The notes beneath the pieces were generated by a model, which was not told the origin of the DNA, searched no databases, and saw nothing but the letters and a program-made list of their open reading frames with translations. Source: Thermoflavimicrobium daqui (GTDB lineage Bacteria > Bacillota > Bacilli > Thermoactinomycetales > Thermoactinomycetaceae). From it: 64,000 bases of DNA. Positions 1-11,389 of this stretch are shown in pieces (position 1 is the first letter of the stretch; each line of letters opens with the position of its first letter). Made by a program: the position numbers and the translations under genes. The DNA lies in the NCBI RefSeq assembly GCF_003313465.1, contig NZ_KZ845674.1, forward strand, positions 1 to 64,000, given 5' to 3'.

Positions 1-366
1 TTTGATTGTTTCACTTGATACATTCCCTGCTGTACTAACGAAGAAAGAGCGTGTCCAAAGACTTGGCAGATGAGACAGGTGTTTAAATTCCTGTCTTAAT
101 CGTCTGGAAGTCACTCCTTTCACTCTTGCCATAATATCTGATGGAGAATTAGAGGGAAGACAATTCAAGAACAAATGACAATGATCAGGCATCACTTCCA
201 TAGCAAGAATGATCCAATCATTCTCTTGGCAAATTTCTTCTACTAACTGTCTGAATCGCTCTTCCACTCTGTTCACTAACACTTTTCTTCGATAACGTGG
301 GCAGAAAACAAAATGATAGTTAATTAAAGATACAGTTGTTTTCGTTCTTCGATATTCTTGTTCCAT
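1..366 (-). mobile_element. tnpA: IS200/IS605-family transposase TnpA, 3' part outside window
   Basis: Reading the minus strand from the ATG at 366 gives MEQEYRRTKTTVSLINYHFV and continues with a CPRYRRKVL segment. The metal-binding HUH motif appears as DHCHLFL, followed by the SDIMARVKGVTSRRLR helix. This is the compact single-domain Y1 transposase that moves single-stranded DNA hairpin-ended elements. 122 codons are visible; the helix carrying the catalytic tyrosine would lie beyond base 1, so activity cannot be judged. No frameshift is seen in the visible part. Structured DNA at 421-503 lies just upstream of its start. Confidence 0.9.
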
Positions 367-420
367 ATTATTAATTGTATCAGTTTAATGGTCATAATGA
401 AACAATTAAAGATAAAAAAT

Positions 421-860: not shown

Positions 861-1940
861 ATGACAAATAAGAACCGGGATGATTTTTACTTTGGACCTC
901 CACCGGTACAAAGTGAACTAACCAATCCCCAACTTTTCCGCCAAAGTCAGACATTAGCTGATCAAACTACTTCCCGACTTTTTCACAGAAAGCAGACAGA
1001 GAATAGTTCCAATTTTTTTGATCAGTCACCAGAAATTCCTGTCGGAGCATGGATGAATCAACACCAACCAAGTTCTAACCCCAGTCAAAACCATTCAAAG
1101 AGCCGGGAAATTCCATCACGATTTATAACTATATTTAGAAATAGATGGCTACGTTTTACTACTTTTTCTTTTATTTTTGTGCTGGTATTGCTATTGATTT
1201 TACGATTAAGCATTCCCATGATTGCGAATATATATGCTGAAGATCCGATTCAACTTACACAAACACCCGAGAAAGGTTTTGAACCCATTACGATTCAAGA
1301 GCTACGTAAGCATAATTATTTACTGGTAGAAACGTTTAAAAAGGTTGAAGATGCTCGCTTTAATGAGCATAATGGGGTGGATTATGAAGGTCTAACCCGG
1401 GCTATCTATCACAGTACCTTTAAAGGGAAAAAAGAAGGTGGCGGGACTATTACCATGCAAGTCGCACGAAATGTAGTCCTTGGAGACCTCGATCAAACAT
1501 TAAGCCGTAAACTAAAAGAGATGGGGACTGCTTGGAATTTAGAAAAAAAATATAGTAAAGATCAAATTCTCGAGGCTTATCTCAATGGAATTTCCTTTGG
1601 AAATGGGATTAAAGGAGTACAAATTGCGGCCAAAGTTTATTTTGGTAAGAATTTAAAAACAGAAGCATTAACCATTGGTGAAGTAGCTGTACTCGCTGGT
1701 CTGCCCAAAGCACCTGAGGGATATAACATGTATTTTAAAGATCCAGCTGAATCAGAAAAACGTCGCCAAAAACTGGATAAACGTCAAGCTACAGTTTTAA
1801 TGCTGATGTCACGTAAAGATGATATGCTGCCACTTATTTCGGAAAAAGAAGCCAAGAAATGGGAAGATGCACCATTACCATTACAATCTGAAAAAAAAGT
1901 AAAGAAAGCCCTAAAGAAAAATAAAATCAATTTGATATAG
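861..1940 (+). CDS. Membrane-anchored transglycosylase (GT51), truncated relative to class A PBP
   Basis: Peptidoglycan glycosyltransferase that would polymerise lipid II on the outer face of the membrane. The 359-residue protein has a polar Ser/Gln/Asn-rich cytoplasmic region (1-95), one membrane segment (about 98-118) and a GT51 domain. Visible motifs are VEDARFNEHNGVD with the catalytic Glu near 163, GGGTITMQ, RKLKEMGTAW and ILEAYLNGISFGNG. It ends in a Lys-rich tail just after the linker that in the paralogue at 2297 leads into the transpeptidase, so it probably arose by loss of that domain. The start is ATG 861, 7 bases after AAGGGGG; the upstream in-frame TTG (858) is not favoured. First of four paralogues in tandem. 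Confidence 0.9.
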   Translation: MTNKNRDDFYFGPPPVQSELTNPQLFRQSQTLADQTTSRLFHRKQTENSSNFFDQSPEIPVGAWMNQHQPSSNPSQNHSKSREIPSRFITIFRNRWLRFTTFSFIFVLVLLLILRLSIPMIANIYAEDPIQLTQTPEKGFEPITIQELRKHNYLLVETFKKVEDARFNEHNGVDYEGLTRAIYHSTFKGKKEGGGTITMQVARNVVLGDLDQTLSRKLKEMGTAWNLEKKYSKDQILEAYLNGISFGNGIKGVQIAAKVYFGKNLKTEALTIGEVAVLAGLPKAPEGYNMYFKDPAESEKRRQKLDKRQATVLMLMSRKDDMLPLISEKEAKKWEDAPLPLQSEKKVKKALKKNKINLI

Positions 1941-1981
1941 CCACTAGCCGGCTCATAAATAATTTTTATTTTAGTAAAATG

Positions 1982-2016
1982 GGTTTCTCTAATAAATATA
2001 GAGGAGCCTTATTTTA
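1982..2016 (+). terminator. Probable intrinsic terminator after first GT51 gene
   Basis: GGTTTCTCTA (1982-1991) pairs with TAGAGGAGCC (about 1999-2008), including two G-U pairs, and is followed by a T-rich stretch. Confidence 0.5.
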
Positions 2017-2060
2017 TTACTAATCCGTTCATCCATTTAAGATATTTTTTTACACAATTA

Positions 2061-2140
2061 ATAAAAATCAATGAACAATAAATGAAACATATTACAATTT
2101 GTAAAGATGACACCCATTTTTAGGGGATTTGCGTTATAAT
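2061..2140 (+). promoter_or_regulatory. Upstream block of second GT51 gene, copy of 598-677
   Basis: Second copy of the 80-base promoter block, with TATAAT at 2135-2140 and TGACA at 2108-2112. It precedes the class A PBP gene by about 157 bases. The rest of the gap 1941-2296 holds the terminator at 1982 and no other recognised feature. Confidence 0.55.
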
Positions 2141-2296
2141 GATTAAGTGTTATTGGCCTAGTTGTATTTTCTATTCAGTGATAGAAGAAAGTGGGAGTCC
2201 ATTGCTGGGGGTAAATCAGAATAACTAAAATAGAATATTTGCCATAGTTGGTAATCTTAACATTCACTTTTGATTTTTTACCAAGGGGGATGTTCG

Positions 2297-5011
2297 ATGA
2301 ATGATAAGAATAGGGATGATGTTCATTTCGCTCCAAAGGTACGAAGTGAACGAATCGGTCCCCAGCTTACACGAAGAAAACAGAAGCCAAGTAGTGATAA
2401 TTTCTTCGGTCAGCTGAAAGATAAAGTTTCCGGACTGTTCAGTAGTCAGGGAAAAAAGCAAGATCCGAACCCTCGAGGTTCTGGTGGAGGAGGGCTTGGT
2501 CCTTCTGAACCAAAAGGACCACGGCAAAAAGGCCCAGGAACTTCTAAAAAGCCCGGGGGCAAGTGGGGAAATTTATTTAGTTTAAAGTGGTTCGTCTTAG
2601 TGTTAGTCACTTCGTTTTTATTGATGATTGGATTTGCAGCGACCATTATGGTTAGTTCGAAAGTCCTACCTCTGGAAAACATGGATCAAAAAGATACACC
2701 TGCTATTATATATGGAAAAAATAATGTAGAAATAGCGAAAATGTCCAAAGAAGCTTTTGAACCTATTTCGATGAAAGAATTAAAACAGCATAATCAGCTA
2801 CTAGTTGATACCATCAAAAAAGTAGAGGATGCACGGTTTGATAGTCATAATGGTGTCGACTATGAAGGATTAGCTCGGGCGGTCTTTAATAGTATTTTTA
2901 AAGGAAAAACCGAGGGTGGCGGAACGATTACCATGCAGGTAGCTCGTAATGTCATTTTAAATGATCTTGATCAAACCATGACTCGGAAGTTAAGAGAGAT
3001 GGCAGCAGCTTGGAGTATCGAAGCAAAATATGGTAAGGAACGGATTTTAGAAGCTTATCTTAACGGAATTTCCTTTGGTAATGGGATTAAGGGAGTACAA
3101 CTTGCTGCTAAAGCCTACTTTAATAAAGACTTGAAAAAAGATAAGTTAACAACAGGTGAAGTCGCTATTCTTGCTGGTTTGCCCAAAGCTCCTGAAGGAT
3201 ATAACTCTTATAAAGCCGACCCTGTACAAGCAGCCAAGAGTAAAGAAAGATTAAAGAAGCGACAAGATATTGTACTCATGATTATGGCCCGGGAAGATGA
3301 TATGCAACCTCTTATTTCGCAAGAGGAGAAATCAAAGTGGCAAAACGCTCCTTTACCACTTCAACCCAAATCCAATGTAAAAAAACATGTGAGTAAGAAT
3401 CATTCGACTGTATTTGATGAGTTAATTAAAGAAGAAATTGAAAAGAAATTCCCACAATTTAAAGCTAAGGATCTTCATAAGAATGGGCTAAAAATTTACA
3501 CCAATATTGATCCAAACATGCAAAAAGCGGTGGAGCAGGCACTAAAAGATGATAGTTTATTTGAGGATCGTTTTGGAAAAATACCACCACAAAAAGTGAT
3601 TGATGCAGGAGTAACAGTGGTTAATCCGAAAGATGGTACGATTGTCGCATTGGGTGGTGGACGGAACTATCAGAAAGGGCTAACCTCCAACTGGGCTTTT
3701 ACTAAGATTCAACCCGGTTCGACTATGAAACCCCTCACGGTTTATGGACCAGCCGTTGAGCTAAAGAGATTTGATGAAAATACGATGTTAACAGATGAGC
3801 AAATTAAAGTCCCAGGTAAGGAGAAGCCGATCAAAAACTTTGATAATAAATACTATAATCAAATATCGATGAGTGAAGCACTTAAGAAATCACTTAATGC
3901 TTCAACAATCTGGCTTCTACAAAATCATGTCGGTCTTGATAAAGCATTTGAATATGGGAAGAAATTAGGTTTACCTCTAGTTGATCCACAAGATAAAAAC
4001 TATTCCCCGCTGGGTCTTGGTGGGCTATATAAAGGGGTTTCGACTCTAGATATGGCACAGGCCTACTCTGTCTTCCCGAATAATGGTGCTTATTATGAAG
4101 CCCACTTAATTAAAGAAATAAAAGGTAAATTACCAGAAGAAGATAAAGAAATCTCCGTGAAGGCAGAATATAAGCCTAAACAAGTGTTTAGTAAACAAAC
4201 TGCATGGTATATGACTCGGATGTTACGTAATAACGTCATGGCGAAAGATGGAACGAAGAATGCTAAGCTTGATGATGGGCGTGAAGCGGCTGGTAAAAGT
4301 GGAACAACCCAAGAAGAGCAAGAAGGTTGGTTTGTCGGGTTTACCCCAGATTTGGTTACATCAGTTTCTGTATTTTATATCGATAAACCAAAGGGAGATC
4401 AGAAGTATCACTATACAGGATCAACTGCTCCAGCCAAATTATTTAGTACGATTATGTCTGAGGGACTAAAAGGTACACCAGCCAAGAAATTCGTCAGACC
4501 AGAAGGCGTACAAGATCCGAAAGCACCATTAAAAGATCTAAACATCAAAGCATCGTATAAAGATGGAGCGATTAAGCTTAGCTGGAATAGCGCCGGATCA
4601 GGTGTCAAATATAATGTAGAACGCTCCGAAGACGGTAAGAACTATGAAATGATCGCTCAAGATCTCATTACCACGAGCTACTCTGATCCAGTCGATGTAG
4701 GACTCTTAGATAAAGCACTCTCCTTCTTTGGCAAAGAGAAAAAATATCACTATCGGGTCACTGTGATCGATAAAGAAAATCCTGGTAATAAAAAAGCCGG
4801 AGTAGTAATTGTTAGACTTACTGACGATCAATCTGGCCAAGATCAAGGTAATTCTGGGGAACAACCTGAACCAGGTAATCAAGATCATGACAATGGAAAC
4901 GGGAATGGCAATGGAAATGGTCACGGTAATGGGCGTGGCAATGGAAACGGTAATGGTCGTGGAAATGATGAGTTTGGAGATTTTCTTGATGACTTCTTTA
5001 ATGGTTTTTAA
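2297..5011 (+). CDS. Class A penicillin-binding protein (PBP1-like, GT51 + transpeptidase + FnIII)
   Basis: Bifunctional cell-wall synthase of 904 residues. Order: basic, Gly/Pro-rich cytoplasmic region (1-95), membrane segment (about 98-119), GT51 domain with catalytic Glu near 177 (VEDARFDSHNGVD) and GGGTITMQ, then a transpeptidase domain. The latter has the acyl-acceptor Ser in PGSTMKPL (Ser near 475), SLN near 532 and KSGT near 667. A fibronectin-III-like domain (about 745-840) and a tail of repeated Asn-Gly pairs ending in an acidic-aromatic stretch follow. The FnIII domain and low-complexity tail recall B. subtilis PonA, but the usual recU neighbour is absent. Start: ATG 2297 after AAGGGGG, matching the first paralogue; the in-frame TTG at 2270 is rejected. 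Confidence 0.93.
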   Translation: MNDKNRDDVHFAPKVRSERIGPQLTRRKQKPSSDNFFGQLKDKVSGLFSSQGKKQDPNPRGSGGGGLGPSEPKGPRQKGPGTSKKPGGKWGNLFSLKWFVLVLVTSFLLMIGFAATIMVSSKVLPLENMDQKDTPAIIYGKNNVEIAKMSKEAFEPISMKELKQHNQLLVDTIKKVEDARFDSHNGVDYEGLARAVFNSIFKGKTEGGGTITMQVARNVILNDLDQTMTRKLREMAAAWSIEAKYGKERILEAYLNGISFGNGIKGVQLAAKAYFNKDLKKDKLTTGEVAILAGLPKAPEGYNSYKADPVQAAKSKERLKKRQDIVLMIMAREDDMQPLISQEEKSKWQNAPLPLQPKSNVKKHVSKNHSTVFDELIKEEIEKKFPQFKAKDLHKNGLKIYTNIDPNMQKAVEQALKDDSLFEDRFGKIPPQKVIDAGVTVVNPKDGTIVALGGGRNYQKGLTSNWAFTKIQPGSTMKPLTVYGPAVELKRFDENTMLTDEQIKVPGKEKPIKNFDNKYYNQISMSEALKKSLNASTIWLLQNHVGLDKAFEYGKKLGLPLVDPQDKNYSPLGLGGLYKGVSTLDMAQAYSVFPNNGAYYEAHLIKEIKGKLPEEDKEISVKAEYKPKQVFSKQTAWYMTRMLRNNVMAKDGTKNAKLDDGREAAGKSGTTQEEQEGWFVGFTPDLVTSVSVFYIDKPKGDQKYHYTGSTAPAKLFSTIMSEGLKGTPAKKFVRPEGVQDPKAPLKDLNIKASYKDGAIKLSWNSAGSGVKYNVERSEDGKNYEMIAQDLITTSYSDPVDVGLLDKALSFFGKEKKYHYRVTVIDKENPGNKKAGVVIVRLTDDQSGQDQGNSGEQPEPGNQDHDNGNGNGNGNGHGNGRGNGNGNGRGNDEFGDFLDDFFNGF

Positions 5012-5018
5012 TCGAATG

Positions 5019-5051
5019 AACCCAGTGCAAACTCTGCACTGGGTTTTTTTT
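5019..5051 (+). terminator. Strong intrinsic terminator after class A PBP
   Basis: An 11-bp perfect stem, AACCCAGTGCA/TGCACTGGGTT, is followed by a run of T. Confidence 0.9.
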
Positions 5052-5088
5052 GTCTTCTATAAAGGGTACTTAGATATTAGACACTTTT

Positions 5089-5117
5089 TTGACATAACTT
5101 TAACTTTCATTCATAAG
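5089..5117 (+). promoter_or_regulatory. Sigma-A-type promoter for third GT51 gene
   Basis: TTGACA (5089-5094), a 17-base spacer and CATAAG (5112-5117). It lies between the terminator of the preceding PBP gene and the GTG start at 5167, so this gene has its own promoter. It does not resemble the 80-base blocks of the first two genes. Confidence 0.6.
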
Positions 5118-5166
5118 CTTTAGATTTAGATGGATGGAGCATAGAGAGATGAAAGGAGGGATCAAG

Positions 5167-7677
5167 GTGGATGAACGAAGTATGCCCCCCGATTACTCCA
5201 CAAAAGCAGAAAATAAACGTGAAGATACAGAAGATAATCGAGATAAAGATAAATACCAAATAATCATACATAAATATTCTCAGGTGAAAGCCAAAAAAGA
5301 AACACTAGGATCATCACAGCTTCCAACTGAATCAAGAAATAGAGGGTTTCCTTTAGTAAATTGGAAGTGGTTATCTCTTGTTCTAATAACTTCTTTTTTA
5401 TTGGTATTTGGAATTTTACTAACGGTTATACTTACATCCGAATTTTTACCGATTGAACGTATCACGGAAAAAGATAAACCAACCATCATTTATGATCGAA
5501 ATAATAAAGAGTATGCTAAGCTTCGTAAAAAATTATATGAACCGATTTCTATGGAATCATTACGAAAAAAAAATCCTCTCTTGATTGATACGATCAAAAA
5601 GGTAGAGGATCAGCGCTTTGACCATCACAGTGGGGTAGATTACTATAGTTTGGCTAGGGCCATCTATAAAACTCTCTTTTCCGATAAAACAGAAGGTGGC
5701 GGAACCATTACCATGCAAGTAGCACGAAACGTCATCTTAGAAAATTTGGAACAAACCCTAGGACGGAAATTAAAAGAGATTGTTGTTGCATGGAATTTAG
5801 AACGGAAATACTCCAAAGATCAAATTTTAGAGGCTTATTTTAACCATATCTATTATGGGAATGGTATTTATGGCGTTCAGTTAGCAGCCAAAATCTACTT
5901 TGGGAAAGATTTATCAAAAGATAAGCTTACACCAGGGGAAGTGGCGATCTTAGTTGGAATTCCGAAGGCGCCTTCGGGATACAGTCCTTACCGGTTAACC
6001 AAAGATCAGACAGGAAAAACAGGGATAGAAAGACTAGAGGAACGACAAAAAATCGTGTTATCTATTATGGCTCGAAAAAATGACATGAAACCTCTTATTT
6101 CTGAAAAGGAAAGGCAGTTTTGGAGTCAAGCTCCCATCTCTATCAGACCTAAAACGGACTTGCTAGAGTATAAACGGCAAGTAGCGGCTACCCCTTTTGA
6201 CACCTTAATTGAGGCAGAGATCGAAAAGAAGTTTCCCCAGTTTAAAGTCGATGAGCTAAATGCAAGCGGTTTGAAAATTTATACAAATATTGATCCCAAA
6301 GTACAAACGGCAGTTGAAACTGCGCTACAAAATGATCGTTTATTCACAAGTTACCAAAATCAGTTGATGCCAAGAGAAAAAGTGGAAGCTGGGGTAACCG
6401 TGATTGATCCTCATGATGGTTCCATTGTGGCGATTGGAGGCGGTCGTAATTTTCAGCCTAAGCTCACACGTGTACGTGCCTTGGATAAGCATCAGCCAGG
6501 ATCATCGATTAAGCCTCTGACGGTCTACGGACCTGTCATTCATTTAAGAAAGTTTCATGAGTCTACCCCCCTTCAAGATGAAAGTCTGACTGTCCATGGC
6601 AAGAGGATTCAAAACTTTGAACATGAGTATTATGGTCATGTCAAGATGAAAGATGCAGTAAAGTATTCACTCAATTCAGCTACTGTTTGGTTACTAGAGA
6701 AGCATCTAGGAGTGGATGTTGCCTTTGATTATGGAAAAAAACTAGGTTTACCGTTGATTGCAGATGATAAAAACCCCTCTCCACTTGCGCTTGGAGGGTT
6801 AACACGGGGAGTTTCTACCAAAGATATGGCACAAGCGTATTCAGTCTTTCTGGGGGATGGCAGTTATTATGAAGCGCATATTATTAGAGAGATTCGCGGA
6901 TTTGCTACCGACGAAGAAGAGGAAATTACCGTCAAAGCAGACTATGAACCCATTCAAGTTTTTGATCGACAAACAGCATGGCATATGCTTCAGATATTAC
7001 GAGGGACTGTTATGGATTCGGATGGTATTCGTGCAGCTAGATTAGCAGGTAGAGAAGTAGCGGGAAAAAGTGGTACCACTCAAAATAAGGAAAAAGGTTG
7101 GTTTGTCGGACTGACACCTAATTATGTGACTGCTGTTGTTGTGTTTAATGAGTATCAGAAAGATGAAAAGTTAAATAACAAAAAATATGAAATCATAGGT
7201 GGAGGTGCTCCAGCAAAGCTATTCTATTCCATTATGACAGATGCACTGAAAAATACCCCTCCACAGACATTTGTTAAGCCAAAAGGAATCGAGAATTTAG
7301 AGACACCTATTCAACAAATCGGGATAAGTGGAACTTTTATAGATGGAAAAGTAAAGCTTAGCTGGACCCCTAGTGAAAAAGGTGTGAAATATAAATTGGC
7401 TCGTTCTGATGATGGATATTTTTATCAAGAAATTGCTAAAAACCTAACTACAACAAGCTATGTAGACTCGATCCCGAAAGGCGGAGGTATTTTAGAGAAA
7501 GTATTATCTTTCCTTACTAGAGAAAAAGTGTATTATTATAAAGTAACCGCGCTTTACCCCAATGGTCGAAATGATGAAAAAACAGGAACCGTAAGCGTAA
7601 CGATACCTGATCAATCCACAAACGAAGAAAAACCGAGTGACAATGGTAATGGGATTTTTGATTGGTTAGGCTTCTAG
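5167..7677 (+). CDS. Class A penicillin-binding protein (GT51 + transpeptidase + FnIII), second copy
   Basis: 836-residue bifunctional peptidoglycan synthase paralogous to the preceding gene. Charged cytoplasmic segment (1-65), membrane segment (about 69-90), GT51 with VEDQRFDHHSGVDY (Glu near 147) and GGGTITMQ, transpeptidase with PGSSIKPL (Ser near 446), SLNSAT and GKSGTTQ. A C-terminal FnIII-like domain (about 680-780) is followed by a short polar tail, without the long Gly-Asn repeat of its neighbour. All expected catalytic residues are present. Start is GTG 5167, 7 bases after AAAGGAGG; the earlier ATG at 5134 has no ribosome site. No clear terminator follows, so read-through into the next gene is possible. 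Confidence 0.92.
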   Translation: MDERSMPPDYSTKAENKREDTEDNRDKDKYQIIIHKYSQVKAKKETLGSSQLPTESRNRGFPLVNWKWLSLVLITSFLLVFGILLTVILTSEFLPIERITEKDKPTIIYDRNNKEYAKLRKKLYEPISMESLRKKNPLLIDTIKKVEDQRFDHHSGVDYYSLARAIYKTLFSDKTEGGGTITMQVARNVILENLEQTLGRKLKEIVVAWNLERKYSKDQILEAYFNHIYYGNGIYGVQLAAKIYFGKDLSKDKLTPGEVAILVGIPKAPSGYSPYRLTKDQTGKTGIERLEERQKIVLSIMARKNDMKPLISEKERQFWSQAPISIRPKTDLLEYKRQVAATPFDTLIEAEIEKKFPQFKVDELNASGLKIYTNIDPKVQTAVETALQNDRLFTSYQNQLMPREKVEAGVTVIDPHDGSIVAIGGGRNFQPKLTRVRALDKHQPGSSIKPLTVYGPVIHLRKFHESTPLQDESLTVHGKRIQNFEHEYYGHVKMKDAVKYSLNSATVWLLEKHLGVDVAFDYGKKLGLPLIADDKNPSPLALGGLTRGVSTKDMAQAYSVFLGDGSYYEAHIIREIRGFATDEEEEITVKADYEPIQVFDRQTAWHMLQILRGTVMDSDGIRAARLAGREVAGKSGTTQNKEKGWFVGLTPNYVTAVVVFNEYQKDEKLNNKKYEIIGGGAPAKLFYSIMTDALKNTPPQTFVKPKGIENLETPIQQIGISGTFIDGKVKLSWTPSEKGVKYKLARSDDGYFYQEIAKNLTTTSYVDSIPKGGGILEKVLSFLTREKVYYYKVTALYPNGRNDEKTGTVSVTIPDQSTNEEKPSDNGNGIFDWLGF

Positions 7678-7818
7678 CTTCCAATCCAATTGAATTCTCT
7701 AAACCATGTTCAGTTTGTAAAAAGATCGGGTACTATCAAGATAATTGCCTATTAAAATAGACTTAATCTCTGATTGATTTGAATTTGTAAGTTAGAAAGA
7801 AGCAAAGGGGAACGATCG

Positions 7819-8823
7819 ATGAACGATCTAGATCAGTCCAAAGGAAAATTAGATTTCTCCCCCGAAATTCGAAGTGCACGCCTTCGTGGTCGTTCGTCTG
7901 TTGAGACAGGTAAAGATCAAAAGTCCAAAAAAAGTATGCCACCACCACAAAAAAAGCGTTCTCGTCGAAGAAAAAAAAGGTACTTGTGGCTTCGTTTGTT
8001 TAACTGGAAGTGGTTTATGCTTGTAGGCACTACTTCTTCGCTCCTCATGTTTGGTTTTATCACCTCTCTTTTGTTTGTAGCTAAGTTTCAGCATCTCGAA
8101 AAGATCAACAACATTAAAACACAGTCTGTGGTCATTGCTCGTGATGATCAATTGGGAGCTAAGCAAAAAAAGATATACTACGAATTTATTCCCATTCAAG
8201 AGATTCGTGCTAAGAACCCACTCCTGCTCGACACGTTTGTCAGAGTGGAAGATGTTCGTTTCTATCGGCATAATGGTGTTGATTTTAAGGCCTTATTTCG
8301 AGCAACAGCCAAAACCTTGCTAGGTGATAAGCAAGGCGGTGGTACCATTACCATGCAGGTCGCGCGCAATGTCATTATCGAAAGCCATAAGCAAACCTTA
8401 TCACGTAAACTAAATGAAATGGCAGTAGCTTGGAATCTCAATCGGGAATATAGCAAAAGTCGAATTCTCGAAGCATATGTAAATGGAATCGACTTCGGGA
8501 ATCAGATAAAAGGAGCGCAGCTAGCAGCCAAAGCCTACTTTGGAAAAGACTTACGTAAAGATATACTCAATCCGAATGAAGTGGCCGTCCTTGTCGCCAT
8601 TATCAATGGACCAAGTGTCTATGACCCATATGGAAGCAAGGATACTCAAGAAAATCTAAAAGAAAGACGCGACTTAATTCTGGCGATGATGTCTAAAGAA
8701 GACGATGGGATGAAGGCTCTGATTACGCCAATAGAAAAGGAATCATGGCAGCAAAAACCCATGTTGATCAAAAGCAAGCTATTCAAAGACCGAGTCCTTG
8801 GGAAAATAGGGAAGAAGGAATAA
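7819..8823 (+). CDS. Membrane-anchored transglycosylase (GT51), transpeptidase-less
   Basis: 334-residue paralogue with a strongly basic cytoplasmic tail (Arg/Lys cluster 45-58), a membrane segment (66-88) and a GT51 domain: VEDVRFYRHNGVD (Glu near 144), GGGTITMQ, RKLNEMAVAW and ILEAYVNGIDFGNQ. It stops shortly after the domain in a Lys-rich end, like the gene at 861, so two of the four tandem paralogues lack a transpeptidase. At 334 residues it is longer than typical monofunctional MtgA-type enzymes and has the linker of class A PBPs, which again suggests domain loss. Start ATG 7819 follows AAAGGGGAA at good spacing. Confidence 0.9.
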   Translation: MNDLDQSKGKLDFSPEIRSARLRGRSSVETGKDQKSKKSMPPPQKKRSRRRKKRYLWLRLFNWKWFMLVGTTSSLLMFGFITSLLFVAKFQHLEKINNIKTQSVVIARDDQLGAKQKKIYYEFIPIQEIRAKNPLLLDTFVRVEDVRFYRHNGVDFKALFRATAKTLLGDKQGGGTITMQVARNVIIESHKQTLSRKLNEMAVAWNLNREYSKSRILEAYVNGIDFGNQIKGAQLAAKAYFGKDLRKDILNPNEVAVLVAIINGPSVYDPYGSKDTQENLKERRDLILAMMSKEDDGMKALITPIEKESWQQKPMLIKSKLFKDRVLGKIGKKE

Positions 8824-8973: not shown

Positions 8974-10014
8974 ATGAGAGGAAAATGGCGGCTCACTTTT
9001 CAAGTGGGTTTTACTTATATTGGTACGGTGATCGGTGCGGGATTTGCTTCAGGACAAGAAATGTTACAGTTTTTTTCTGTGTATGGTAAGTATAGTTATC
9101 TAGGGATTATGATTAGTACCTTTTTTTTCGCTTGGCTAGGAGTTCGCATGATGGTGATCGGGGCACGGCTTGGTGCAGACTCTTATCAGGAATTTAATCG
9201 ATTTCTGTTTGGGAAACGTTTAGGTGAATGGATGAATCATCTTGTGACGATTATGCTATTTGGTGTAACCGTTGCAATGTTAGCAGGAACAGGTGCACTG
9301 TTCGAAGAACAATTAGGTCTTTCCTTTCACTTGGGAGTTTGGTTATCCATTATTTTTGCTTATTGGTTTAACCTTCGTGGACTAGATGGGATATTATCAG
9401 TCAATACATTCGTTGTGCCTTTTATGCTAGGATTTATGCTATTTGTTGTATGGATGGGATTGCAACAAGGAGAGGTGGGACCACTTTGGGAGAAACTACC
9501 GATCCGTGCAGAACCCCATTGGTTGATAGCGACGATTTCTTATATCGCTTTTAATTTGGTTTTGTCTCAATCGGTGTTGGTACCACTTGGAGCAAGTATT
9601 CGAGATGAAGTGATTTTACGATGGGGTGGATGGATTGGAGCGATTGGGCTAGGGATAATGATGCTTATTGGTAACATGGTGATTCAATGGCACTTAGAGG
9701 AAGTTCTGCTAGCCAAAATTCCTATGGGTTGGGTGATTGCAGAGATTGGAAAAGGGATTCAACTCTTGTTTTTATTGTTAGTCTGGGGTGAAATTCTAAC
9801 CACCCTTATTGGGGATGTATATGGACTAGCAGCCAGTTTAAGAAAATGGGTTTCTATACGAACAACATGGTTAATCACGGGAATTTTTCTATTGGCTTAT
9901 TTATTATCATTTGTCGGCTTCTCCAATCTCGTCCGTTATTTATATCCACTGTTTGGTTACTGTGGTTTGGGAATGGTATTTCTGCTAGTTGTACGTCGAA
10001 TGCCGTCTTATTAA
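8974..10014 (+). CDS. YkvI-family multi-spanning membrane protein (putative transporter)
   Basis: 346 residues with about ten hydrophobic segments. The first (QVGFTYIGTVIGAGFASGQE) carries a GAGFASGQE loop typical of YkvI-type proteins, which are distant relatives of sodium:solute symporters. Substrate is not known for the family, so none is assigned. Start ATG 8974 follows AAAGGGGTGA. The next gene starts 56 bases downstream on the same strand, so the two may be co-transcribed. Confidence 0.75.
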   Translation: MRGKWRLTFQVGFTYIGTVIGAGFASGQEMLQFFSVYGKYSYLGIMISTFFFAWLGVRMMVIGARLGADSYQEFNRFLFGKRLGEWMNHLVTIMLFGVTVAMLAGTGALFEEQLGLSFHLGVWLSIIFAYWFNLRGLDGILSVNTFVVPFMLGFMLFVVWMGLQQGEVGPLWEKLPIRAEPHWLIATISYIAFNLVLSQSVLVPLGASIRDEVILRWGGWIGAIGLGIMMLIGNMVIQWHLEEVLLAKIPMGWVIAEIGKGIQLLFLLLVWGEILTTLIGDVYGLAASLRKWVSIRTTWLITGIFLLAYLLSFVGFSNLVRYLYPLFGYCGLGMVFLLVVRRMPSY

Positions 10015-10070: not shown

Positions 10071-10601
10071 TTGAAGGGGCTTTTACTCATTGGATTAGCT
10101 TATGTCTTAGGAGCAATTCCCTTGGCTGAATGGATCAAACAAAAGAAAAGATATGTCCCCCATCTGTACTTATCGATGATCTATTTAGCCAAGGGAATGA
10201 TTGCCACAGGAGCAGCGTGGATGATCGGAGGGCTTATGATTGCCCATATGGCTGCTATCGCTGTAGTGATAGGGCAGATGTATTCATTTTTTTATAGTAC
10301 ACGTGGAGAGAAGGGGATGATGGTCGCAGCAGGAGCGATTTTTATTTTAAGTCCAGTCATTATTCTGATTGGGGCATTCATTTATTTATTCAGTTTGCTA
10401 ATCACTAGGTATCTATTTTTATCTACGTTCTTTTCAACCATTGCTGTGATCCTTATTTCACTTGTAGTAGCTAGTCACGCTATGTTATGGTTGGTCACGA
10501 TTACGATTGGACTTATGATCTTATTTCGACAAAAAAAGCATTGGCAACGATATCGCCGAGGGCTTGAGCCACCCTATCACTGGCGTAAGCCATTTAGCTA
10601 A
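10071..10601 (+). CDS. PlsY-like integral membrane protein, catalytic motifs degenerate
   Basis: 176 residues, five or six hydrophobic segments. The N-terminus, LAYVLGAIPLAEW, resembles the first motif of glycerol-3-phosphate acyltransferase PlsY (GSIP). At the position of the PlsY GGKG motif this protein has a GQMYSFFYSTRGEKG segment: the conserved His and one Gly are replaced. It may be a diverged paralogue with altered or no acyltransferase activity; the true plsY would lie elsewhere. Start is TTG 10071, after AAAGGGGGAA. It ends tail-to-tail with the next gene, overlapping by four bases. Confidence 0.55.
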   Translation: MKGLLLIGLAYVLGAIPLAEWIKQKKRYVPHLYLSMIYLAKGMIATGAAWMIGGLMIAHMAAIAVVIGQMYSFFYSTRGEKGMMVAAGAIFILSPVIILIGAFIYLFSLLITRYLFLSTFFSTIAVILISLVVASHAMLWLVTITIGLMILFRQKKHWQRYRRGLEPPYHWRKPFS

Positions 10602-11389
10602 ATATGCCAAGAGACTTTGTAGCCAGTATGCTTACGGATATTAAGGACTCCTTGATCAAAAATTAGATACTGTGCTTTAATTCCCATCAGCTTTGCAGTA
10701 ATCACCGCTTGTTTATCTAAATTGAGTGAAGTGATTTTGTCTGGGACAGATAGATGGGGATAGTTGAATGTATAAGGCTCATTAATGGGAAGTAGATAAG
10801 GATGATATTCTTCGGGAATTTTCTCGACTATTTGTGCTCTAACTTCGATTAAATTCTCATCACGAATGTCATTTTTAAGCATTTTGCGCCAGTTGGTCTT
10901 ATCTTTGATGTATTGTGCAAGGTGGACTTCAAGCTCCCCAGCTATTTTTCGGCTAGGTACTTCCATGATCGGAAGGGCAGCGACGGCTCCTTGGTCAATC
11001 CAACGTTTGAGTGCATTGGGCTTTCGAGTAATTCCTACTTTTACTTCGCTACTTAAAGCGAGATAGACGTAATGAGCTTGCATACAGAATTTTTCACCAA
11101 AGGCAGTATCCCGACATGTTCCTTTATGAAAGTGGCACAGTTCTGGCTTTACAATACATAGGTCATTTTCTGCTAGATTCGTATAACAAGGATAGCAGTA
11201 TCCATTGTTGTATGTTTTTTTTATTTTACGTCCACAATGGCGACATGCTTTTTCACCTAAAAAAGTAAGTTGAATGGTTTCACCAAGAGCTTCATTTAGT
11301 AAAACACGCTCATTACCTACTGGAAGATAGTAGGTAACAGGTGTAGATGGTTCATGTTGTAAAGGTTCGAGATAACCGATTTGTTCCAT
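10598..11389 (-). CDS. DUF2797 domain protein with zinc-ribbon cysteines
   Basis: 263 residues. An N-terminal Cys-rich part (CRHCG near 50, then CYPC, a lone C and CHFHKGTC) suggests a structural zinc site. It is followed by YVYLALSSEVKVGITR, a later Arg and an ELEVHLAQYI segment. This order (Y-V-Y, K-V-G-I-T, R, E) is reminiscent of the GIY-YIG nuclease fold, but that is my inference; the family is officially of unknown function. Start ATG 11389 follows GAGGTGTCGTC. The gene stands alone on the minus strand. Confidence 0.7.
   Translation of the reverse strand: MEQIGYLEPLQHEPSTPVTYYLPVGNERVLLNEALGETIQLTFLGEKACRHCGRKIKKTYNNGYCYPCYTNLAENDLCIVKPELCHFHKGTCRDTAFGEKFCMQAHYVYLALSSEVKVGITRKPNALKRWIDQGAVAALPIMEVPSRKIAGELEVHLAQYIKDKTNWRKMLKNDIRDENLIEVRAQIVEKIPEEYHPYLLPINEPYTFNYPHLSVPDKITSLNLDKQAVITAKLMGIKAQYLIFDQGVLNIRKHTGYKVSWHI

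Follow-up and report, generated by a model that had tools for sequence, protein, structure and literature searches.

Probable tandem expansion of a class A penicillin-binding protein gene in Thermoflavimicrobium daqui, with two separate losses of the transpeptidase domain, in a bacterial family many members of which lack elongasome genes

The first 64,000 nucleotides of contig NZ_KZ845674.1 of Thermoflavimicrobium daqui (hereafter the window) carry, between positions 861 and 8823, four co-directional open reading frames (ORFs) with a GT51 glycosyltransferase (GT) domain, arranged in the order short, long, long, short and designated here S1, C, D and E. The best explanation of this locus, which we hold with moderate confidence, is that one ancestral class A penicillin-binding protein (PBP) gene multiplied in tandem at its original place and that the transpeptidase (TP) domain was lost twice independently, earlier in E and later in S1, leaving two predicted GT51-only polymerases beside bifunctional paralogues. 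Judged from their sequences, S1 and E most likely polymerise lipid II into glycan strands for crosslinking by other TPs, and strands left uncrosslinked by them would be joined in trans by the class A PBPs of the array (genes A to D, see below), by class B PBPs or by L,D-transpeptidases. A sequence-only reading of this DNA had proposed a duplication followed by domain loss; its observations were confirmed and its interpretation was partly supported by the present analysis, which adds a setting that lay beyond the view of a single window, namely the loss of the elongasome and the recurrence of TP loss in other parts of the family Thermoactinomycetaceae.

Searches with PF00912 (cut-off 27 bits) and PF00905 agreed with this arrangement. 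S1 (861..1940, + strand, 359 amino acids) and E (7819..8823, + strand, 334 amino acids) matched PF00912 with 164 and 165 bits, respectively, and gave no PF00905 match, while the bifunctional class A PBPs C (2297..5011, + strand, 904 amino acids) and D (5167..7677, + strand, 836 amino acids) matched PF00912 with 162 and 167 bits and PF00905 with 127 and 89 bits. The gene starts at 861, 2297, 5167 and 7819 were chosen by eye from ribosome-binding sites and leave intergenic gaps of 356, 155 and 141 nt; a membrane anchor in S1 as well as an FN3-like part and a Gly/Asn-rich tail in C were likewise judged by eye. Both catalytic Glu motifs and GGGTITMQ are retained in all four proteins, in line with what had been noted from the letters alone. 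C and D carry intact TP motifs (SxxK, SxN and K[ST]G); S1 and E, which stop in the linker directly past the GT51 domain, have none of them. The Lys-rich C-terminal tails ascribed to the short proteins at this position are indeed present in S1 and in the E of the window, but the E orthologue of the congener G022 ends in LKAFAD instead. A structure model of E (mean pLDDT 70, pTM 0.65) matched the GT51 fold, the best match being 3vmq, a membrane-bound transglycosylase of Staphylococcus aureus (E-value 6e-10, target TM score 0.73, root-mean-square deviation (rmsd) 9.2), and 2oqo was matched with an E-value of 2e-9, a target TM score of 0.83 and an rmsd of 3.4.

In order to trace the origin of the four genes, GT51-domain trees were built from 94 genes of 15 of the 23 family genomes (bootstrap unsettled, correlation 0.981) and from 57 rows taken from all 127 GT51 genes of the 23 genomes. 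All 16 cluster genes of the three genomes of the genus, that of the window (G000) and the congeners G021 and G022, formed one clade (support 96/94 in the 94-gene tree and 98/97 in the 57-row tree), so that the four window genes fell together with the other cluster genes. The closest branch to S1 was gene C from G000 itself (100/97 in both trees), and E was sister to gene B (92/95 and 99/94, respectively); the grouping of the three D genes was weakly supported, being open in the 94-gene tree and 86/62 in the other. Each of the three genomes of the genus carries E in GT-only form, its orthologues (L018:16526-17524 and L023:3596-4534) being 55-60% identical to the E of the window, and together with its position in the tree this means that E lost its TP in the ancestor of the genus, before the three congeners split. 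S1, which is absent from the arrays of G021 and G022 and among the three genomes occurs in G000 only, is a later copy of C with a separate truncation.

Synteny pointed to the same origin. Stretches of 19 kb were compared from ten genomes outside the genus, and the place of the array was found in nine of them: eight held one class A PBP gene there (open frames of 873-940 codons) and the ninth, G001, held two. The flanks consist of RluD-, SDR-, YkvI- and PlsY-like genes and a DUF2797 gene, with LigA further to the left where within range; only the PlsY-like and DUF2797 names come from family searches, and the names RluD, SDR, YkvI and LigA are our presumed assignments. The contig of G016 ends shortly past the PBP gene, and neighbours are partly missing in G016, G013, G006 and G001. 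The place was not located in the tenth genome, G010, nor in two additional stretches of G001, where the GT51 genes retrieved were not accompanied by these neighbours.

The cluster of four genes is probably a cut view of a larger array, because the window opens at a contig end and another contig of the same genome, C13 (66,995 bases), ends in two further class A PBP genes, A (L013 8500-11139, 879 amino acids) and B (L013 11324-13771, 815 amino acids). An IS200-like transposase gene tnpA (Y1_Tnp; 1..384, − strand, PF01797 127 bits), open at the contig start, opens the window (contig C12), and a tnpB gene (L013:13940-14812, − strand, PF07282 and PF01385) follows A and B on C13. Both transposon genes are on the same strand and probably form a single IS200/IS605 element that separates gene B from S1, and the order in G000 is probably A-B-IS-S1-C-D-E with six PBP genes, as read across the contig gap; no overlap was found between the ends of C12 and C13. 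In G021 and G022 the array is an uninterrupted A-B-C-D-E. The idea of a four-gene cluster was not supported, as the two congeners have five such genes and G000 probably six.

Loss of the TP was not confined to S1 and E. Motif reading of the 127 GT51 genes showed 15 without a working TP, all 15 of which retain the GT51 Glu motifs. They comprise the three E genes, S1, the short genes L015, L020 and L025, a clade with decayed motifs spanning G000, G021, G022, G013 and G015, a decayed pair in G001 and G002, and gene B of G022. The whole domain is gone in E and S1, and the motifs have decayed in L017, L022, L027, L048, L150, L029, L034 and gene B of G022. The latter (L023:10435-12453, − strand) has SILA in place of SxxK, RSA in place of KTG and a shortened C-terminus next to an intact GT51 domain, and as read from these motifs would be a middle stage between the bifunctional and GT-only forms. 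The 57-row tree, which included all 15 TP-less genes, requires six TP losses, all forced by supported branches; one of the six presumes a past TP in the lineage of L015, L020 and L025, and no TP was found near these three genes in any frame of the stretches fetched. As a separate observation, two class A PBPs of G012 (L054:1222-3999 and L055:742-3114) have Asp in place of the second GT51 Glu with intact TP motifs, possibly a decay in the opposite direction.

Comparison with known families placed the array among the class A PBPs of the PBP1A family (TIGR02074, PF00912/PF00905). C and D share its architecture and motifs, scoring 424 and 404 bits with TIGR02074, under its cut-off of 509, and S1 and E belong to the same clade but lack the TP. 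In architecture (membrane anchor plus GT51) S1 and E resemble the monofunctional transglycosylases MtgA/MGT (TIGR02070), and the closest solved fold is that of the S. aureus enzyme mentioned above; an assignment to MtgA was nevertheless rejected, as they scored 102.5 and 105.1 bits against a cut-off of 182.65 and are nested within the class A PBP clade, S1 with C and E with B. The short genes L015, L020 and L025 of the same genomes form a separate clade (100/98 and 99/96).

The genomes of the genus also lack the core of the elongasome. A strong MreB match (PF06723, 478-497 bits, E-value below 1e-140) was present in nine of the 23 genomes (G004, G006-G009 and G017-G020), and the remaining PF06723 matches reached at most 79 bits, mostly on much longer frames. 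Those of the genus (at most 76 bits, frames of 419-622 codons) are above the Pfam cut-off of 27, and we take them to be other proteins of the actin/Hsp70 fold. MreC passed its cut-off in the nine MreB genomes only, a match in G022 (19.7 bits) staying below it, and a third SEDS protein was likewise restricted to these nine, the genus having two. The third SEDS protein of G004, the one tested, had RodA as its best model (TIGR02210, 379 bits, cut-off 337), and the two of G000 had SpoVE as best model, passing the FtsW cut-off and staying below that of RodA (306 and 330 bits); the RodA cut-off separates poorly, given that a SpoVE-like protein of G004 scored 337.1 and that all five proteins tested passed the RodA_shape model NF037961. 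A class B PBP whose TP match spans 1032-1038 bases was, among the matches listed, also confined to the nine MreB genomes. In G004, the one tested, its best model was pbp2_mrdA (399 bits, below the cut-off of 455), which with 275 bits was also the best model of another class B PBP kept in G000. MreB, MreC, RodA and one class B PBP are thus missing from the other 14 genomes, including all three of the genus; G005 (68% complete) was excluded from comparisons, leaving 13 near-complete genomes without MreB. As both outgroups, Paludifilum halophilum and Thalassobacillus devorans, carry MreB, the absence is most simply a loss. Paludifilum halophilum is itself a member of the Thermoactinomycetaceae, with an RpoB 86% identical to that of G000. 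In RpoB trees the loss of MreB takes two to three changes, and a single origin was not rejected (AU test, p 0.12). Shimazuella soli, probably the source of G016, is reported to have no hyphae, with cells of 1.0 x 1.2 µm and spores of about equal size.

Elongasome loss coincided with larger numbers of GT51 genes and with TP loss. All nine MreB genomes had exactly four GT51 genes, and the 13 genomes without MreB had 4-12, with more than four in 11 of them (Fisher p 0.0002); G000 holds 12. TP motifs were intact in 36/36 GT51 genes of the MreB genomes, and 15 of the 91 genes in MreB-less genomes were TP-less, so that genomes with a TP-less GT51 gene numbered 0/9 with MreB versus 7/13 near-complete ones without (Fisher p 0.017). 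These p-values ignore kinship. The L,D-transpeptidases, which might have replaced the lost TPs, showed no consistent pattern of expansion in the 23 genomes, and this substitution was rejected (6, 2 and 2 YkuD matches in the genus, 2-4 in the nine MreB genomes).

On this basis we put forward, tentatively and as a possible rather than a probable account, that in Thermoactinomycetaceae without MreB, MreC and RodA the class A PBPs multiplied and were repeatedly stripped of their TP in compensation for the missing elongasome, resulting in a wall built by bifunctional and GT-only enzymes. The order of events belongs to the best explanation given above: the GT-only polymerases likely arose once the elongasome (MreB, MreC, RodA and a class B PBP) had been lost, with expansion and TP stripping coming after that loss. 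Class A PBPs together with the two SEDS enzymes of the FtsW/SpoVE type would then have taken on a greater share of the building of the wall, their uncoordinated crosslinking might have become a burden, and the TP would have been stripped from some of them. The net change would be more class A PBP polymerase and less class A PBP crosslinking, a change that could join the two cases considered next.

In the Rhizobiales, according to a published account, the Rod complex is absent and polar growth needs an essential class A PBP (PMC8546619). The genus resembles them in lacking MreB, MreC, RodA and a class B PBP, which makes its class A PBPs candidate main synthases. It differs in having 7-8 TP-intact class A PBPs plus 3-4 TP-less ones per genome and in showing no consistent expansion of L,D-transpeptidases. 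In Pseudomonas fluorescens, deletion of mreB is reported to have raised crosslinking, and fitness was restored by pbp1A mutations that lower crosslinking (PMC11957537). The likeness would lie in a lowered class A PBP crosslinking without MreB, which for the present family is deduced from genes, and the compensation account would make the TP-less proteins a natural counterpart, with the GT kept, of this laboratory rescue. The difference from the reported case is that there a single gene underwent point mutation or deletion, while the change described here is natural and repeated, came about by truncation or motif decay, kept GT51 and left intact paralogues alongside.

A number of points weigh against the best explanation with its link to elongasome loss and, in one case, against the layout of the array. 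In the same P. fluorescens report, complete deletion of pbp1A also rescues and the cells remain spherical, and of the rescuing pbp1A mutants one had its Bocillin/penicillin binding abolished and the other little changed (PMC11957537); for these reasons that case does not show that retention of the GT matters. Counted by genera, TP-less GT51 genes occurred in 0/7 with MreB versus 4/7 without, which is not significant (p 0.07, kinship again ignored). The link between MreB and TP loss goes back to one to three elongasome losses, and a test of MreB loss against TP loss or GT51 number, paired by kinship, found one supported pair and two independent pairs in total, and with only these one to two pairs it has no power; this test was made with L045 (see below) counted as TP-less. 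A TP-less gene is missing from the MreB-less genera G010, G011 and G012: the latter two have lost MreB and have only four GT51 genes, hence neither expansion nor TP loss, and G010 shows expansion without TP loss. Neutral decay of the TP after duplication is also compatible with the data, and the six-gene array depends on the order across the contig gap. We accordingly treat the association as a lead, not as proof, and a causal link as a hypothesis, because the correlation stems from so few losses.

Among the rival explanations, an assembly or frameshift artefact has next to no probability. It would fit a window that opens at a contig end and at an insertion sequence, and elsewhere in the family another short GT51 gene, L045 in G010 (L045:1444-3421), did prove to be frameshifted: its TP and TP motifs lie in another frame, separated from the GT51 part by a frameshift that is either real or a sequencing error, and it was rejected as GT-only and counted as TP-bearing (counting it as GT-only had given 16 genes, seven losses, 8/13 genomes, and p values of 0.006 by genome and 0.02 by genus). 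The same test detected no TP match at an E-value of 1 or better in the noncoding DNA 3' of S1, nor in that 3' of E in all three genomes (150 nt in the window), stretches so short that little of a TP remnant could persist there. Slices that included the coding ends gave one linker-region match (E-value 7e-4), running from inside E of G021 to a few codons past its stop. The GT parts of S1 and C are only 62% identical, which argues against S1 being a misassembled copy, and their dN/dS of ~0.11, a rough value as dS is near saturation, is a sign of purifying selection on the GT51 part. As E is, in addition, GT-only in three separately assembled genomes, artefacts and pseudogenes were rejected for the short genes, against the caution raised in the sequence-only reading.

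Ordinary birth-and-death, with unequal crossing over generating the tandem copies and neutral decay removing superfluous TPs, is unlikely on the whole but has an appreciable chance of being right. The different routes of TP loss, with the whole domain absent in E and S1 and decay of motifs elsewhere, and the presence of the S1 copy in G000 but not in its congeners are what it would predict; the intact GT51 Glu motifs in 15/15 TP-less proteins, the persistence of a GT-only E throughout the genus at 55-60% identity and the low S1-C dN/dS, itself from near-saturated dS, are less easily reconciled with it. We regard as rather unlikely a developmental set, in which the paralogues would act at different stages (septation, aerial growth, sporulation) and TP loss would reflect a stage-specific need rather than elongasome loss. 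The sequence-only reading had suggested septation or sporulation, for which no evidence was found, although no analysis of promoters or sigma factors was made. The intergenic gaps give room for separate promoters, a block 5' of C is conserved with a congener (see below), and spore formers occur in the family, as a report states (PMC9774768), but the place holds a single gene in G016, the probable source of which, Shimazuella soli, forms spores. Improbable, finally, is a shield against β-lactams or other TP-directed antibiotics of soil competitors, in which GT-only and pseudo-TP proteins would continue to polymerise while TPs are blocked. Neither S1 nor E has a TP active site that could be acylated, and cooperation of GT and TP in trans is established for PBP2 and PBP2a of S. 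aureus.

GT51 enzymes, class A PBPs, monofunctional GT51 enzymes and growth without the Rod complex are already known. What is new to us is the array, the GT-only members that arose within a clade of class A PBPs and differ from MtgA in score and tree position, and the co-occurrence with elongasome loss in the 23 genomes surveyed. In openly licensed papers we found no earlier report of the array, of GT-only derivatives of class A PBPs or of MreB loss in the family, and a first scan of a collection of genome contigs for relatives of the array gave none; in a second scan the best 80 of 569 GT51 relatives, Paludifilum halophilum among them, were 30-45% identical. The family offers natural material for asking which enzymes build the wall once the elongasome has been lost and for what reason polymerase and crosslinker commonly occur as one fused protein. 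The bacterium of the window, a Gram-positive without the usual machinery for rod-shaped walls and with an unusually large set of wall enzymes, some of them lacking their crosslinking half, may show how wall growth is rewired after loss of shape control. Within this one family of Bacilli, sister genera that have MreB, MreC and RodA and sister genera that lack them are unlike in the number of class A PBPs and in what became of the TP, so relatives of Bacillus offer a test of the proposed trade-off.

To the right of E lie three conserved neighbours that are kept in synteny in other genera: a membrane protein (8974..10014, + strand) without Pfam or NCBIfam match, which we presume to be YkvI-like, a PlsY-like protein (10071..10601, + strand, PF02660 49.6 bits) and a DUF2797 protein (10598..11389, − strand, PF10977 319 bits). 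No recU was seen among the ORFs near the array, in line with the earlier remark on this gene, and no search aimed at recU was made. The conserved noncoding block 5' of C (2060..2152, + strand) matches the B-C gap of G021 at 83% identity across 93 nt (blastn E-value 6e-24) and includes TATAAT; it is kept between the two genomes though the GT domains diverge by ~30%. A 42-nt piece (2045-2086) recurs 5' of S1 at 582-623 (79%, E-value 3e-6). A 16-base motif from the block had no second exact copy in the window, and its one site with three mismatches is at chance level.

Most of the aligned cluster proteins have in common a cytoplasmic N-terminal motif of the approximate form F-x-P-x-[VI]-R-S-x-R, listed as present in C and E of the window and among B, C, D and E of L018 and L013, and missing or altered in S1 and the D of the window; from its sequence it could be a docking site. 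The N-terminus of gene A is rich in Ser and Arg (L013:8500-8580; L018:5452-5530), which we presume to resemble the GpsB-binding motif of PBP1. Elsewhere in G000 a second tandem array consists of three bifunctional class A PBPs (L014, contig C3, 97-110 kb), and pairs or triples of class A PBP genes occur in many genomes of the family.

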